Below, piece after piece: positions 7,963 through 40,496 of a DNA stretch of 52,702 nt (positions within the stretch are counted from its first letter, which is position 1; the number at the start of each line of letters is the position of its first letter). This stretch comes from an uncultured Bacteroidales bacterium. Its GTDB lineage: Bacteria; Bacteroidota; Bacteroidia; Bacteroidales; UBA932. The notes under the pieces were generated by a model. The model saw nothing but the letters and a program-made list of their open reading frames with translations. It did not search any database and was not told the origin of the DNA. The stretch spans positions 1-52,702 of the forward strand of contig ONQC01000013.1 of NCBI GenBank assembly GCA_900319855.1. The letters are read 5' to 3'. A program made the translations under genes and the position numbers.

Positions 7963-9130
7963 ATGAAGATGCGAGTTCTGCGGCAAGCTGTTCCTTGGAC
8001 AGGACAGGATTGCCGTAGATCCGCAGAAGGATATCCCGCAGATCCGCCCGGTCCAGCGTAGGTTCAACCTGGTCCAGCTGGTGCTCGATATATGCCGAGA
8101 ACTGTTCCAATTCCTCCGGAGTATATTTCTCGGCATATTTGCTGCACCCGTTTGCCAGGTCATACCCCATGTAATTGGTTTTCCACAAATGATAGCCTTC
8201 GATAACCCGCAGGTCCACCGCGTGGCGGATGGCCTGGTACCGGTCATTCTTGTTGCAGAAAGAGGCGGCATAGACCTCATCATGCGTCAGGGGGGCGCCG
8301 ATGTTCAGGTGGATATTCCCCTTCTGCTGACGGATGCCCGTCACGATGCTGATTAGGTCCTCGCGTGAGCCTTTCACATATTTTTCCGTCCGTGAGATCA
8401 ATGTTTCACGGGCTTTCATGATATCACAAGGCTCATACTCATACGAGATGCTGAGCGGAACGATGTTCAGCGCTTCGAAATTGGACGTAAAATCGCCCGT
8501 GCCGCTCATGTCCAGCATCTTCAGCAGCCCTTGCTCGGTGATGTCCACTCCATTCTTCGCACGGCCTTCCCGCTGGGCCAGCCAGATGGAACTTTTGCCG
8601 GAAGTAATGCAGGTACGGATATATTTCGAAAGGACCTGGGAGGAAAGGTACAACGTCCTGGCACTGATGCCCCGGATGACCTTGATCATCCGGTTGGAGC
8701 GGATCAGGTACTCTACATATTTATTGCTCAGCAGATTATCTCCAACTGCGATTTCCGTCAGCGGAATGCCGTTCCGATACAGGACCAATTGGGTGATGGC
8801 GGGATCGAGAATGATATCCCGGTGGTTGGAAAGGCAGAGGAATTTTTGGGAACCGAGATGTTTCAAATTTTCGACTCCGTCATAGGAAAAATTATGTGCG
8901 GAGGTCTCCAAGACCCACTCCACCGCCTTGTTCATCACCAGTTTCTGGAACTCGTCGATGCTTTTCAAGCTTTTCAGCACATCGTGGAGCAACGTCTCCG
9001 GCTGGTCCGGGAACAAGGTCTTTGAAATCAGCGGAACGTTGGGATGCTCCGCCAGGATGCCGAATGCCTTGACGGCTTCTTCATCGGTATAGGGACTGAT
9101 GCTGTCAAATTCGTTGATAGGTTCACTCAT
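7961..9130 (-). CDS. Glycerol-3-phosphate/1-acylglycerol acyltransferase-like protein
   Basis: This 389-residue protein of the PlsB/PlsC acyltransferase superfamily is expected to transfer acyl groups to a glycerolipid or related acceptor at the membrane. The acceptor motif is SNHRDIILDPA near residue 126, where the spacing is H-x5-D rather than the usual H-x4-D. A second block, SIWLAQREGRAKNG, corresponds to the substrate-binding EGTR region, and NIVPLSISYEYEPCD to the downstream proline motif. The ATG at 9130 (MSEPINEF) is chosen over upstream in-frame codons because those lie antisense to queA. A TAACTTTG box precedes it. It is convergent with cysteate synthase, so a lipid link between the two is possible but only inferred. 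Confidence 0.8.
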   Translation of the reverse strand: MSEPINEFDSISPYTDEEAVKAFGILAEHPNVPLISKTLFPDQPETLLHDVLKSLKSIDEFQKLVMNKAVEWVLETSAHNFSYDGVENLKHLGSQKFLCLSNHRDIILDPAITQLVLYRNGIPLTEIAVGDNLLSNKYVEYLIRSNRMIKVIRGISARTLYLSSQVLSKYIRTCITSGKSSIWLAQREGRAKNGVDITEQGLLKMLDMSGTGDFTSNFEALNIVPLSISYEYEPCDIMKARETLISRTEKYVKGSREDLISIVTGIRQQKGNIHLNIGAPLTHDEVYAASFCNKNDRYQAIRHAVDLRVIEGYHLWKTNYMGYDLANGCSKYAEKYTPEELEQFSAYIEHQLDQVEPTLDRADLRDILLRIYGNPVLSKEQLAAELASS

Positions 9131-37730: not shown

Positions 37731-38576
37731 ATGAACATCCTGGTCACAAACGATGATGGATACACGTCAAAAGGCATCCGGACCCTCGCCCGGATGATGC
37801 GCCGTTTCGGTGACGTGACAGTCATCTCCCCGATGAAGCATCAGTCCGGCATGGGCATGGCCGTGTCCATCGGACTCAAACAGATACGATACAAGGACCT
37901 GGGCACGGATGAAGACGGAATCCGCTGGAGCTGGCTCGACGCCACCCCGGCCAGCTGCGTCAAATTCGGGTTCAATTTCATGGACCCGCAGCCCGATGTC
38001 GTCATCAGCGGCATCAACCACGGGCACAACGCCACCAGCGCAGCCTGCTATTCGGGCACGCTGGGCGCCGCGGAGGAAGCCGCCCTCTATGGGACGCCTT
38101 CGTTCGGGGTTTCCCTCGACTCCCTGCACAACGATGCAGATTTTTCCTGCGTTGAAGCCTTGTTCCCGGACCTGTTCACGCGGCTGATGGCCGTGCTTCC
38201 CCAGCGATATGGCATCTTCTATAACATCAATTTCCCCGACCTTCCGACGGAACTGATCAAGGGCATCCGTGTCGCGCATCAGGGCAAAGGAAAATGGATC
38301 AAGGAGTTCAACGAATGGAATCCCGAAATCTTCAAGCGCTTCGGCATCACGCCCGAGTCGGTCGGCCTGTCCCCCAACCCCGTATTGGAAGAAGGTGAAA
38401 AGATGTTCATGATGGTCGGCCAGTATGTCGATGACGACGAGAACCAGCCCGATGCGGACAACCGGCTGCTGGAAGAAGGGTTCATCACGATTACTGCCGA
38501 CAATCTTGATAAGACGGATTATGTTGAAAACAAGCGTCTTATCGATATCGGCTTCAACCAAGACTTCAGCAAATGA
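37731..38576 (+). CDS. surE: 5'/3'-nucleotidase SurE
   Basis: This 281-residue metal-dependent phosphatase acts on nucleoside monophosphates. The N-terminal motif NILVTNDDGYTSKGI carries the metal-binding Asp-Asp. SPMKHQSGMGMAVSI, DVVISGINHGHNATSAACYSGTLGAA and FYNINFP are the other family blocks. It is slightly longer than E. coli SurE (253) through a C-terminal extension. It overlaps lpxB by four bases. The surE-lpxB pair is a recurring Bacteroidetes arrangement. Confidence 0.95.
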   Translation: MNILVTNDDGYTSKGIRTLARMMRRFGDVTVISPMKHQSGMGMAVSIGLKQIRYKDLGTDEDGIRWSWLDATPASCVKFGFNFMDPQPDVVISGINHGHNATSAACYSGTLGAAEEAALYGTPSFGVSLDSLHNDADFSCVEALFPDLFTRLMAVLPQRYGIFYNINFPDLPTELIKGIRVAHQGKGKWIKEFNEWNPEIFKRFGITPESVGLSPNPVLEEGEKMFMMVGQYVDDDENQPDADNRLLEEGFITITADNLDKTDYVENKRLIDIGFNQDFSK

Positions 38577-39733
38577 AATACTATATCATTGCAGGTGAGG
38601 CATCGGGAGACCTGCATGGTTCCAACCTGATGAAAGGCCTTTATTCGGAAGACCCGGCCGCAGATATCCGATTCTGGGGCGGCAGCCTGATGAATGCCGT
38701 TTATTCAGAGCATCAGCATGGCGACGGTTTCGTACGGGATTACAAGGAAGGAGCTGTCATGGGTTTCTCCCAGATCATCCTGCATGCCGGAAAGCACCTG
38801 AAACGGGTCCGGGAATGCTGCGAGGACCTGCTCCGGTTCCAGCCTGACGCCGTCATCCTGATCGACTATCCCGGTTTCAATTTCCGCATCGCCGAATTCT
38901 CCCACAAACAGGGACTGAAAGTTTTCTGGTACATCGCCCCGAAAGTCTGGGCGTCCCGGGAAGGACGGATCCGCAAGCTCAAAGCATACGTTGACAAACT
39001 TTTCATCGTATTCCCGTTCGAAAAGCCGTATTTCGACCGGAAGGGCGTAGACTACGTCTATAAAGGGAATCCGCTGGTCGATGCGATCGACGGCTCCCCT
39101 TCTGCCTCACAGTCCCGCCAGGAATTCCTGGCGGCTGCCGGCCTGGCGGACCGTCCTGTCATCGCCATCCTGGCCGGGTCCCGGAAAGCCGAGGTCAAGA
39201 CCATGATGCCGGTGGTCAGCGCCTTCGCGGACCGGATGCATGCACTTCCGCAATACAAAGACTATCAGTTTGTCCTGGCCGGTGCTCCTTCCCGTTCCCT
39301 GCAGGATTACGTACCCTGGCTGGCCGGTCGGGAAGAGTACCTGAAATTGGTTTTCGGCCAGACCCAGGCCATCCTGCGGCATGCGGAAGCCGCCGTTGTC
39401 AATTCCGGGACGGCCTCGCTGGAAGCCTGCCTGATCGGCACGCCCCAGGTTGTGGGCTATGCCATCTCCAACTTCAATTACCAGATCGGGAAACGGATCA
39501 TCAAGGTCAAATACATCAGCCTGGGCAACCTGATTGCGGACCGCCTGGTGTTCCGCGAATTGATCCAGCACGACCTTACAGCTGACAACCTGGTCGCGGA
39601 AATCCGCCGCCTGATCGAAGACCAGGCCTATCGCGGAACCATGCTGGACGGTTATCAGGAAATTCGCCAGGCCCTCGGCGGCACCGGTGCCTCCGCCGCC
39701 GTCGCCCGCACCATGATCCAGGAACTATCTTAG
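38573..39733 (+). CDS. lpxB: Lipid-A-disaccharide synthase
   Basis: This 386-residue peripheral membrane glycosyltransferase (GT19) joins UDP-diacylglucosamine to lipid X in lipid A synthesis. Motifs are YIIAGEASGDLHGSNL at the start, VILIDYPGFNFRIAEF, FWYIAPKVWASREGRI, FPFEKPYF, ILAGSRKAEV and the UDP-binding VNSGTASLEA. The length is normal. The stop codon TAG (39731-39733) lies inside the left arm of the inverted repeat 39729-39831. It is co-transcribed with surE. Confidence 0.96.
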   Translation: MKYYIIAGEASGDLHGSNLMKGLYSEDPAADIRFWGGSLMNAVYSEHQHGDGFVRDYKEGAVMGFSQIILHAGKHLKRVRECCEDLLRFQPDAVILIDYPGFNFRIAEFSHKQGLKVFWYIAPKVWASREGRIRKLKAYVDKLFIVFPFEKPYFDRKGVDYVYKGNPLVDAIDGSPSASQSRQEFLAAAGLADRPVIAILAGSRKAEVKTMMPVVSAFADRMHALPQYKDYQFVLAGAPSRSLQDYVPWLAGREEYLKLVFGQTQAILRHAEAAVVNSGTASLEACLIGTPQVVGYAISNFNYQIGKRIIKVKYISLGNLIADRLVFRELIQHDLTADNLVAEIRRLIEDQAYRGTMLDGYQEIRQALGGTGASAAVARTMIQELS

Positions 39734-39831
39734 ACCAACTGACCTTCTTCTACGTCGATCCTCCCCACAAGTGGGTCCCCTCCCTTTTCGGGAGCCAATG
39801 TCGACTTAAGAAGAAGGTCAGTTGGTCTAAG
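39729..39831. repeat. 103-base element: 23-bp perfect inverted repeat with two internal hairpins
   Basis: The left arm (39729-39751) and right arm (39809-39831) are exact reverse complements over 23 bases, outer ends CTTAG/CTAAG, inner ends CTTCTTCT/AGAAGAAG. After a small bulge the stem continues with GTCGA/TCGAC. The loop folds into CCCAC-AA-GTGGG (39764-39775) and CTCCC-TTTTC-GGGAG (39780-39794). It fills the space between two convergent stop codons. No T-run follows, so it is not a standard terminator. It looks like a REP- or MITE-type palindromic element, but a target duplication is not evident. Confidence 0.85.
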
Positions 39832-39833
39832 AA

Positions 39834-40496
39834 TCAATATTCTCTTGGACCGAAGATGGCGGTGCCGATACGGACCAGGGTCGAGCCGTGCTCGAGCGCC
39901 AGGGGCCAGTCATCGGACATACCCATGGAAAGTTCCTTAAATTCAGTCAGTTCCGGTAACATGGAATGAGCTTTGGCGAAGGTTTCCGCCAATCGTGAGA
40001 AATCCCCGTGAATGACCCCGGAATCGTCCGTCAGCGTCGCCATGCCCATGAGACCGCAGAACCGGATGTGCGGGAAAGCACCCCGTACTGCTTGGGTCAG
40101 GACCATCAGGATCTCCGCTTCCGTAAAACCCTGCTTGGTCGCATCCTGGCTGATATGCTGCTCCAGCAGCACTGAAACCGTCCGCTCATTCTCCGCGCCC
40201 CAGCGCTCGATACTGACCAGCAGCCGGAGCGTATCCACACTTTCCACCAGGGTGGCATACGGAAGGACCAGTTTCAGCTTGTTGGTCTGCAGATGGCCGA
40301 TGAAATGCCACTGCACATCCGCAGGCATTTGCGGCACCTTGGCCGCCATCTCCTGCGGACGGCTTTCGGCGAAAAGCCGCTGTCCGGCATCATATGCCTC
40401 CTGCAGCTTCTCAACCGGATGGAATTTGGAAACTGCCACCAGGCGGGTGCCAGATGGCAGTTTCGACTTGATATTCAGTAGATTCTCTGCGATCAT
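39834..40496 (-). CDS. YggS/PLPBP-type pyridoxal phosphate homeostasis protein
   Basis: This 220-residue PLP-binding TIM-barrel protein of the alanine racemase N-terminal fold has PLP Lys in LVAVSKFHP (about residue 24), then ESRPQEMAAKVP, WHFIGHLQTNKLK, GLMGMATL, LSMGMSDDWPLALEHGSTLVRIGTAIFG. It carries no known enzyme activity and buffers cellular vitamin B6. It sits three bases downstream of yidC on the minus strand, and its stop is adjacent to the inverted repeat element. The usual FGEN motif near residue 43 reads FAESRPQE here. Confidence 0.94.
   Translation of the reverse strand: MIAENLLNIKSKLPSGTRLVAVSKFHPVEKLQEAYDAGQRLFAESRPQEMAAKVPQMPADVQWHFIGHLQTNKLKLVLPYATLVESVDTLRLLVSIERWGAENERTVSVLLEQHISQDATKQGFTEAEILMVLTQAVRGAFPHIRFCGLMGMATLTDDSGVIHGDFSRLAETFAKAHSMLPELTEFKELSMGMSDDWPLALEHGSTLVRIGTAIFGPREY

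Follow-up and report, generated by a model that had tools for sequence, protein, structure and literature searches.

The space between lpxB and a convergent yggS-like gene of an uncultured Bacteroidales bacterium holds a palindromic element that is probably one copy of a family of non-autonomous mobile elements of about 100-126 bp, spread in Bacteroidales and resembling the Rickettsia palindromic elements, in which template switching would keep the arms matched and flip the core. The element has a two-part build: a core of conserved sequence, whose inner helix bears two hairpins, and long arms that are variable yet complementary. It was found in the window, i.e. the whole stretch of 52,702 nucleotides that was analysed (contig ONQC01000013.1).

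The palindromic element in the window

The features of the element and of its neighbouring genes are as follows.

lpxB, 38573-39733, plus strand: upstream convergent gene, its final codons and stop at the element edge; identified by homologues, in one of which Pfam LpxB was matched
Left arm, 39728-39751, no strand: 24 bp, holding the lpxB stop TAG (39731-39733)
Conserved core, 39754-39805, minus strand (sense strand): inner helix 39754-39758 / 39801-39805 around two hairpins
Hairpin 2, 39764-39775, minus strand: CCCAC-TT-GTGGG in the consensus fold
Hairpin 1, 39780-39794, minus strand: CTCCC-GAAAA-GGGAG in the consensus fold; the single-sequence fold pairs slightly differently inside
Right arm, 39809-39832, no strand: 24 bp, the left arm in exact reverse complement, ending just short of the yggS stop
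yggS-like gene, 39834-40496, minus strand: downstream convergent gene with its stop at 39834-39836, named from the first reading

The original prediction described a perfect inverted repeat with 23-bp arms; the repeat is there, with one outer base more on each arm, and the two 24-bp arms (100% complementary) enclose a spacing of 57 bp. The position of the element between the convergent stops, with the lpxB stop codon inside the left arm, was correctly recognised, as were the lack of a terminator T-run after the right arm and the hairpins of the 57-bp centre, which RNA folding of either strand places as inner hairpins on a long stem. The folding z-scores of the two strands are -8.6 and -8.3, and none of 200 shuffles was equally stable. 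The fourth pair of hairpin 2 exchanges A-U for G-C (20 and 9 of 29 copies). In a list of 21 inverted repeats from the window (length of at least 14, spacing of up to 300), the next are one of 22 nt (82%) and one of 23 nt (78%). Elsewhere in the window, the inverted repeat at 8080-8148 has 22-nt arms at 82% and a spacing of 25 nt.

The very stable fold is one of the properties expected of a host RNA element, in which the hairpin would end or protect both convergent transcripts and RNA pairing would maintain the match of the arms. This reading is considered rather unlikely, and evidence on both of its sides is given below; against it, no Rfam family reaches its gathering threshold for the element, and the outer 3' boundary of 175 copies shows no enrichment in T. 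The Rfam scan passed only a tRNA lying elsewhere in the sequence of one locus (L006), along with two weak matches overlapping elements, scoring 27.4 (threshold 55) and 21.1 (threshold 500). A bidirectional or intrinsic terminator was rejected, since no U-tract follows the stem: T is not enriched at the outer 3' ends of the 175 copies, and the window copy lacks a T-run behind it. A terminator scan of positions 39500-40100 gave 0 sites, which is no evidence either way, because it accepts loops of 3-8 bases only and the whole element is invisible to it.

Copies in the genome of origin and distribution

A search of the own assembly (2.15 Mb, 60 contigs) with the whole element returned 11 matches, corresponding to the window copy (on both strands), seven other full copies and one copy broken into two pieces with 74 nt between them. 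The genome holds, that is, 8 full copies and 1 split copy, each with its own complementary arms; those of the full copies are distinct and complementary across about 20 bp or more, five or six of them appearing related by eye. Further copies of the arm or of the centre had been proposed as a check: the centre proved to be repeated in the genome, but the arm, at up to 3 mismatches, had no match there beyond itself and its partner arm. The dispersed copies refute a structure that is single-copy and specific to this locus, and an assembly fold-back artefact is unlikely, as the same core occurs elsewhere in the own genome and in many separately assembled genomes. In the split copy (L010/L011, at G000 C24:25340-25477) the core is interrupted by 74 nt that seemingly contain several small hairpins, and the arms are still near-complementary.

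A covariance model of the core, R1, was built from 29 copies and matched 124 of 400 genomes of the genus at E<=0.001, some of them weakly; its copies per genome were counted among scored candidates and are lower bounds. The order sample gave 2 matches in 247 genomes at E<=1e-6, the own genome and G622 of the same family, and the phylum sample 1 in 247, the own genome alone, so that outside the genus R1 was found in only 1 genome of these two samples (247 each). A DNA search matched 12 of 61 genomes (own included), all within the genus, and none of the 24 that represent the order's other families. An exact degenerate pattern of the core occurs in at least 113 stretches from named genomes, and the titles of the matches listed are Bacteroidales, Bacteroidetes or Bacteroidia bacteria, families of them, Candidatus Cryptobacteroides, Coprenecus and Cacconaster, the last three all being Bacteroidales. 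The family occurs mainly in one genus, which we infer to be Candidatus Cryptobacteroides. Carriage by phages or plasmids was dismissed, since viral contigs gave no exact match to the core pattern and plasmids and phages no blastn match to the element.

Conserved core and variable arms

In a set of 189 copies, the two arms of one copy are 88% identical (median), whereas arms of different copies have an identity of 0.52 (best of four pairings), near the 0.50 of random left-right pairs; the core has an identity of 0.88 between copies. Arms are on average 0.69 alike within genomes and 0.54 between genomes. Nine genomes (G161, G416, G136, G316, G174 and four others) contain copies with the same arms and unrelated flanks, which points to recent spread. 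A terminal inverted repeat common to the copies, as in MITEs, was not found, given the near-random arms between copies, although arms are shared inside some genomes.

Several copies lie close together. Two genomes have copies 119 bp apart with flanks about 96% identical, a common tandem pair (L081, L082); G136 has three copies inside about 350 bp (L104); and one contig of G013 (C3) has similar-armed copies within about 4 kb (L025, L032, L037).

Selection on RNA pairing would be expected from the host RNA element mentioned above, and two observations agree with it. The consensus fold has changes on both sides at 7 of 14 pairs, mainly in the inner helix, and the mismatches between family-1 arms, read on the core-sense strand with the inner stem counted, comprise 142 G.U to 64 A.C in 175 copies (14 of the 189 were dropped: 7 duplicates, 5 short and 2 with N). 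After removal of similar arms the ratio is 107 to 57 (134 copies, p 1e-4); without the inner 10 nt the excess fades to 31 to 20 (134 copies, p 0.16). The G.U excess near the core is a hint of RNA selection at that place. For the arms as a whole, RNA-pairing selection read from a G.U bias is unsupported, in view of the 31 to 20 ratio and of the reading-frame copies of a second family described below. Conservation of the core fits a host function and selection for spreading alike and does not separate them.

Genomic sites

At 80 loci of named genomes, the genes converge in 33 of 47 element-bearing pairs, compared with 45 of 341 adjacent pairs that hold no element (Fisher p 7e-16). In the first set of 123 copies, 84 have a defined neighbour on each side and are not spanned by an ORF, and 59 of these lie between convergent genes; the two sets overlap, as 44 of 110 named-locus copies were already in the first, and gene calls for placement were crude open-frame picks. 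The strong preference for convergent pairs, where both stops are often no more than about 20 nt away, agrees with a host RNA element; many copies inside long ORFs, where a terminator would be harmful, speak against it.

The window copy itself is intergenic, and the in-frame copies belong to relatives, where they occupy housekeeping genes (truB, miaA, lpxB and others). Family-1 copies stand in frame in some genomes within genes identified by Pfam as miaA, truB, a SpoU methylase, another methyltransferase, NamZ and a pseudouridine synthase. The gene names tilS, aroE and hutI are the analyst's reading, tilS being backed by a PP-loop Pfam match alone.

Empty sites were identified in 5 relatives at miaA and in 4 at the tilS-like gene, where the core and both arms are lacking. 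The copy in the tilS-like gene belongs to family 2, and the insertion is 126 nt long, counted from gap columns. By eye, a short repeat that may be a target-site duplication is seen at the tilS-like copy and none is evident at miaA; no clear target-site duplication was found. An empty lpxB-yggS site was also sought, and element-free convergent ends were seen by eye in L047, L049, L053 and L070, where the divergence is too great to place boundaries. An inverted target duplication was dropped as a general rule, because both arms are missing from the empty sites at miaA and the tilS-like gene. In the lpxB copies the left arm resembles, by eye, native codons of relatives, and it is possible that one arm was copied from the target at lpxB, where loop length varies.

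Second and third core families

Palindromes with a different core, designated family 2, occur at the same truB site in other species, and the family-2 core pattern was found in 12 of 151 genomes of the genus. The LpxB of three genomes carries family 2 at one loop, in both orientations, and measures 423-425 residues with the element versus 382-392 in four proteins without it. Open frames of at least 250 codons contain 27 of the 32 distinct family-2 copies, with the two orientations represented by 12 and 15 copies (again by crude open-frame picks). Family-2 arms have an identity of 0.96 within a copy and 0.44 between copies (32 copies), and their information content of 0.354 exceeds the 0.172 of shuffles (0 of 500 as high; 32 copies), revealing a shared ancestral pattern. 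The two arms have therefore diverged together, since an ancestral pattern is shared despite the between-copy identity of 0.44.

The arm mismatches of the 27 ORF-borne copies, read in mRNA sense, comprise 15 G.U and 29 A.C. The lack of a G.U bias in mRNA sense counts against the host RNA element and favours upkeep of the arms at the DNA level. The second family, which also resides in lpxB, behaves like family 1.

A third core was identified in L282 and L288. A miaA-like gene with a family-2 copy (L309) has an apparent second, shortened palindrome in its flank; the truB of another genome (L283) has, in the region of the shared truB site, a hairpin insert that is shorter and different; and family-1 and family-2 copies stand about 0.9 kb apart in L029 and L301 (G032 C5).

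Inversion of the core at shared loci

BLAST of the flanks identified 22 loci common to different genomes, genome identity being checked by name or handle. At 12 of these loci the core runs in opposite orientations with respect to the flanks; 7 of the 12 keep their arms (identity of at least 0.9). Six inverted pairs were aligned, among them L224/L244, L195/L249, L018/L214, L098/L126 and L020/L021, the last an inversion inside one gene with flanks 98% identical. In the miaA pair L030/L163 the core is inverted and the arms are 0.70 alike.

Arm identity at shared loci looks two-valued, not gradual: arms are at least 0.92 alike in 13 of 20 pairs with flanks of at least 84%, and at most 0.67 alike in 16 of 19 pairs with lower flanks, while the core reaches at least 0.95 in 18 of the 20 and 5 of the 19, respectively; pairs from one locus are non-independent in these counts. 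This two-valued identity makes wholesale replacement of arms, or re-insertion, possible, in which case the flips would be partly independent insertions at a preferred site. Carried further, it leads to an alternative without any in-place inversion, where an unidentified transposase would repeatedly have inserted elements into the same few tolerant sites and differences in orientation and arms would reflect independent insertions. In agreement with it, the elements found at the truB, lpxB and miaA sites differ between species in arms, orientation or core family, and arms at shared loci are for the most part either kept or unrelated. It is nonetheless judged improbable, since 7 of the 22 loci differ in orientation with the same arms, which would need a copy with those very arms to be re-inserted.

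Mobilization and a proposed mechanism

The original prediction of a recently moved palindromic element of REP/MITE type was right in kind, as copies are dispersed and two clear empty sites exist in relatives, though a recent move of the window copy itself is conjectural. Assignment to REP is not supported, the element being much longer than REPs and RAYT-like transposases being equally common with and without it. A REP/MITE-type element mobilised by RAYT or another known transposase would suit the short, hairpin-rich and dispersed character of the copies, and Y1 transposase-like genes are present in 110 of 151 genomes of the genus. PF01797, however, occurs in 24 of 33 element genomes (R1 at E<=1e-8) and in 86 of 118 others, showing no association, in a comparison where the sets were matched by hand and a genome outside the R1 sample would count as element-free. 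Neither G013 nor G136, both of which contain several copies with the same arms, belongs to the PF01797 set, and the copies have no common terminal repeat; this explanation is very improbable. No mobilising enzyme was found.

For the preferred reading, a palindromic mobile family with template switching, the following steps are suggested. The core may be the part recognised by the spreading machinery, and insertions would persist where they are least harmful, either in the gap separating two convergent stops or in protein loops that tolerate them. During replication, hairpin-templated strand switching may convert one arm to the other and so keep the arms matched: a stalled strand would copy its own arm, making an imperfect inverted repeat more perfect. 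A longer template switch, through the core, would leave the core inverted. Arms that diverge yet remain matched, even in coding sequence without a G.U bias in mRNA sense, fit such DNA-level conversion. The apparently two-valued arm identities at shared loci and the G.U excess near the core of family 1 weigh against this mechanism. In E. coli, template switching is described as turning imperfect inverted repeats into perfect ones (PMC7202029), and inversion of small hairpin loops is described for chloroplasts (PMC2939885).

A broader and distinctly tentative proposal is a class of mobile DNA that inherits only an invertible two-hairpin core, the arms being constantly rewritten as matched mirrors by replication through the hairpin; such elements could reside in essential genes in either orientation, as the core can keep an open frame on each of its strands.

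Relation to known palindromic elements and significance

The closest known relatives in kind are the palindromic elements of Rickettsia. Those of Rickettsia and Wolbachia (RPE/WPE) are described as palindromes of 100-150 bp in several families, located in frame in ORFs; orthologues carry them at identical or neighbouring positions, and the elements there sometimes belong to different groups (PMC3767692; PMC10969869). The present elements are similar in size and multiplicity (the window copy measures 105 bp and the tilS-like insertion 126 nt, against about 100-150 bp, and the own genome has 8 full copies) and, in relatives, in their in-frame residence in real protein genes. The likeness drawn here is one of size and placement, and the hosts are Bacteroidales, of a different phylum from Rickettsiales. 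Here, moreover, a conserved core inverts, arms are specific to loci or genomes and intergenic copies favour convergent genes, whereas the parts of the RPE accounts drawn on here mention no core inversion.

For the upkeep of arms, the nearest case is that of the mitochondria of Nematomorpha, where inverted repeats in coding sequence have arms that remain perfect despite turnover, and for which template-switch conversion was suggested (PMC6649704). Those palindromes differ in that both arms encode conserved regions, and a dispersed family with a shared core is not described in the part of that work used here. In chloroplast hairpins, loops of 5-50 bp invert between inverted repeats of 11-24 bp, much as the core is found inverted here, though the portion of the source used does not describe them as a dispersed family (PMC2939885). 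REPs are short dispersed bacterial hairpins that measure 20-40 bp and bear a tag on one of their ends (PMC3733652), unlike the 105-bp element of the window, the presence of which does not track RAYT. No earlier description of such elements in this Bacteroidales group was found in the open-access literature.

Protein-coding palindromes of this kind in bacteria are described, in the accounts cited, for Rickettsia and Wolbachia, and they are now seen in a genus of gut bacteria, where in-frame inserts have been added to essential enzymes. With at least 400 sequenced genomes of this genus, gain, inversion and arm turnover can be traced directly, and two points become testable, namely how palindromes spread and whether template switching acts both as the matcher of arms and as the flipper of loops.
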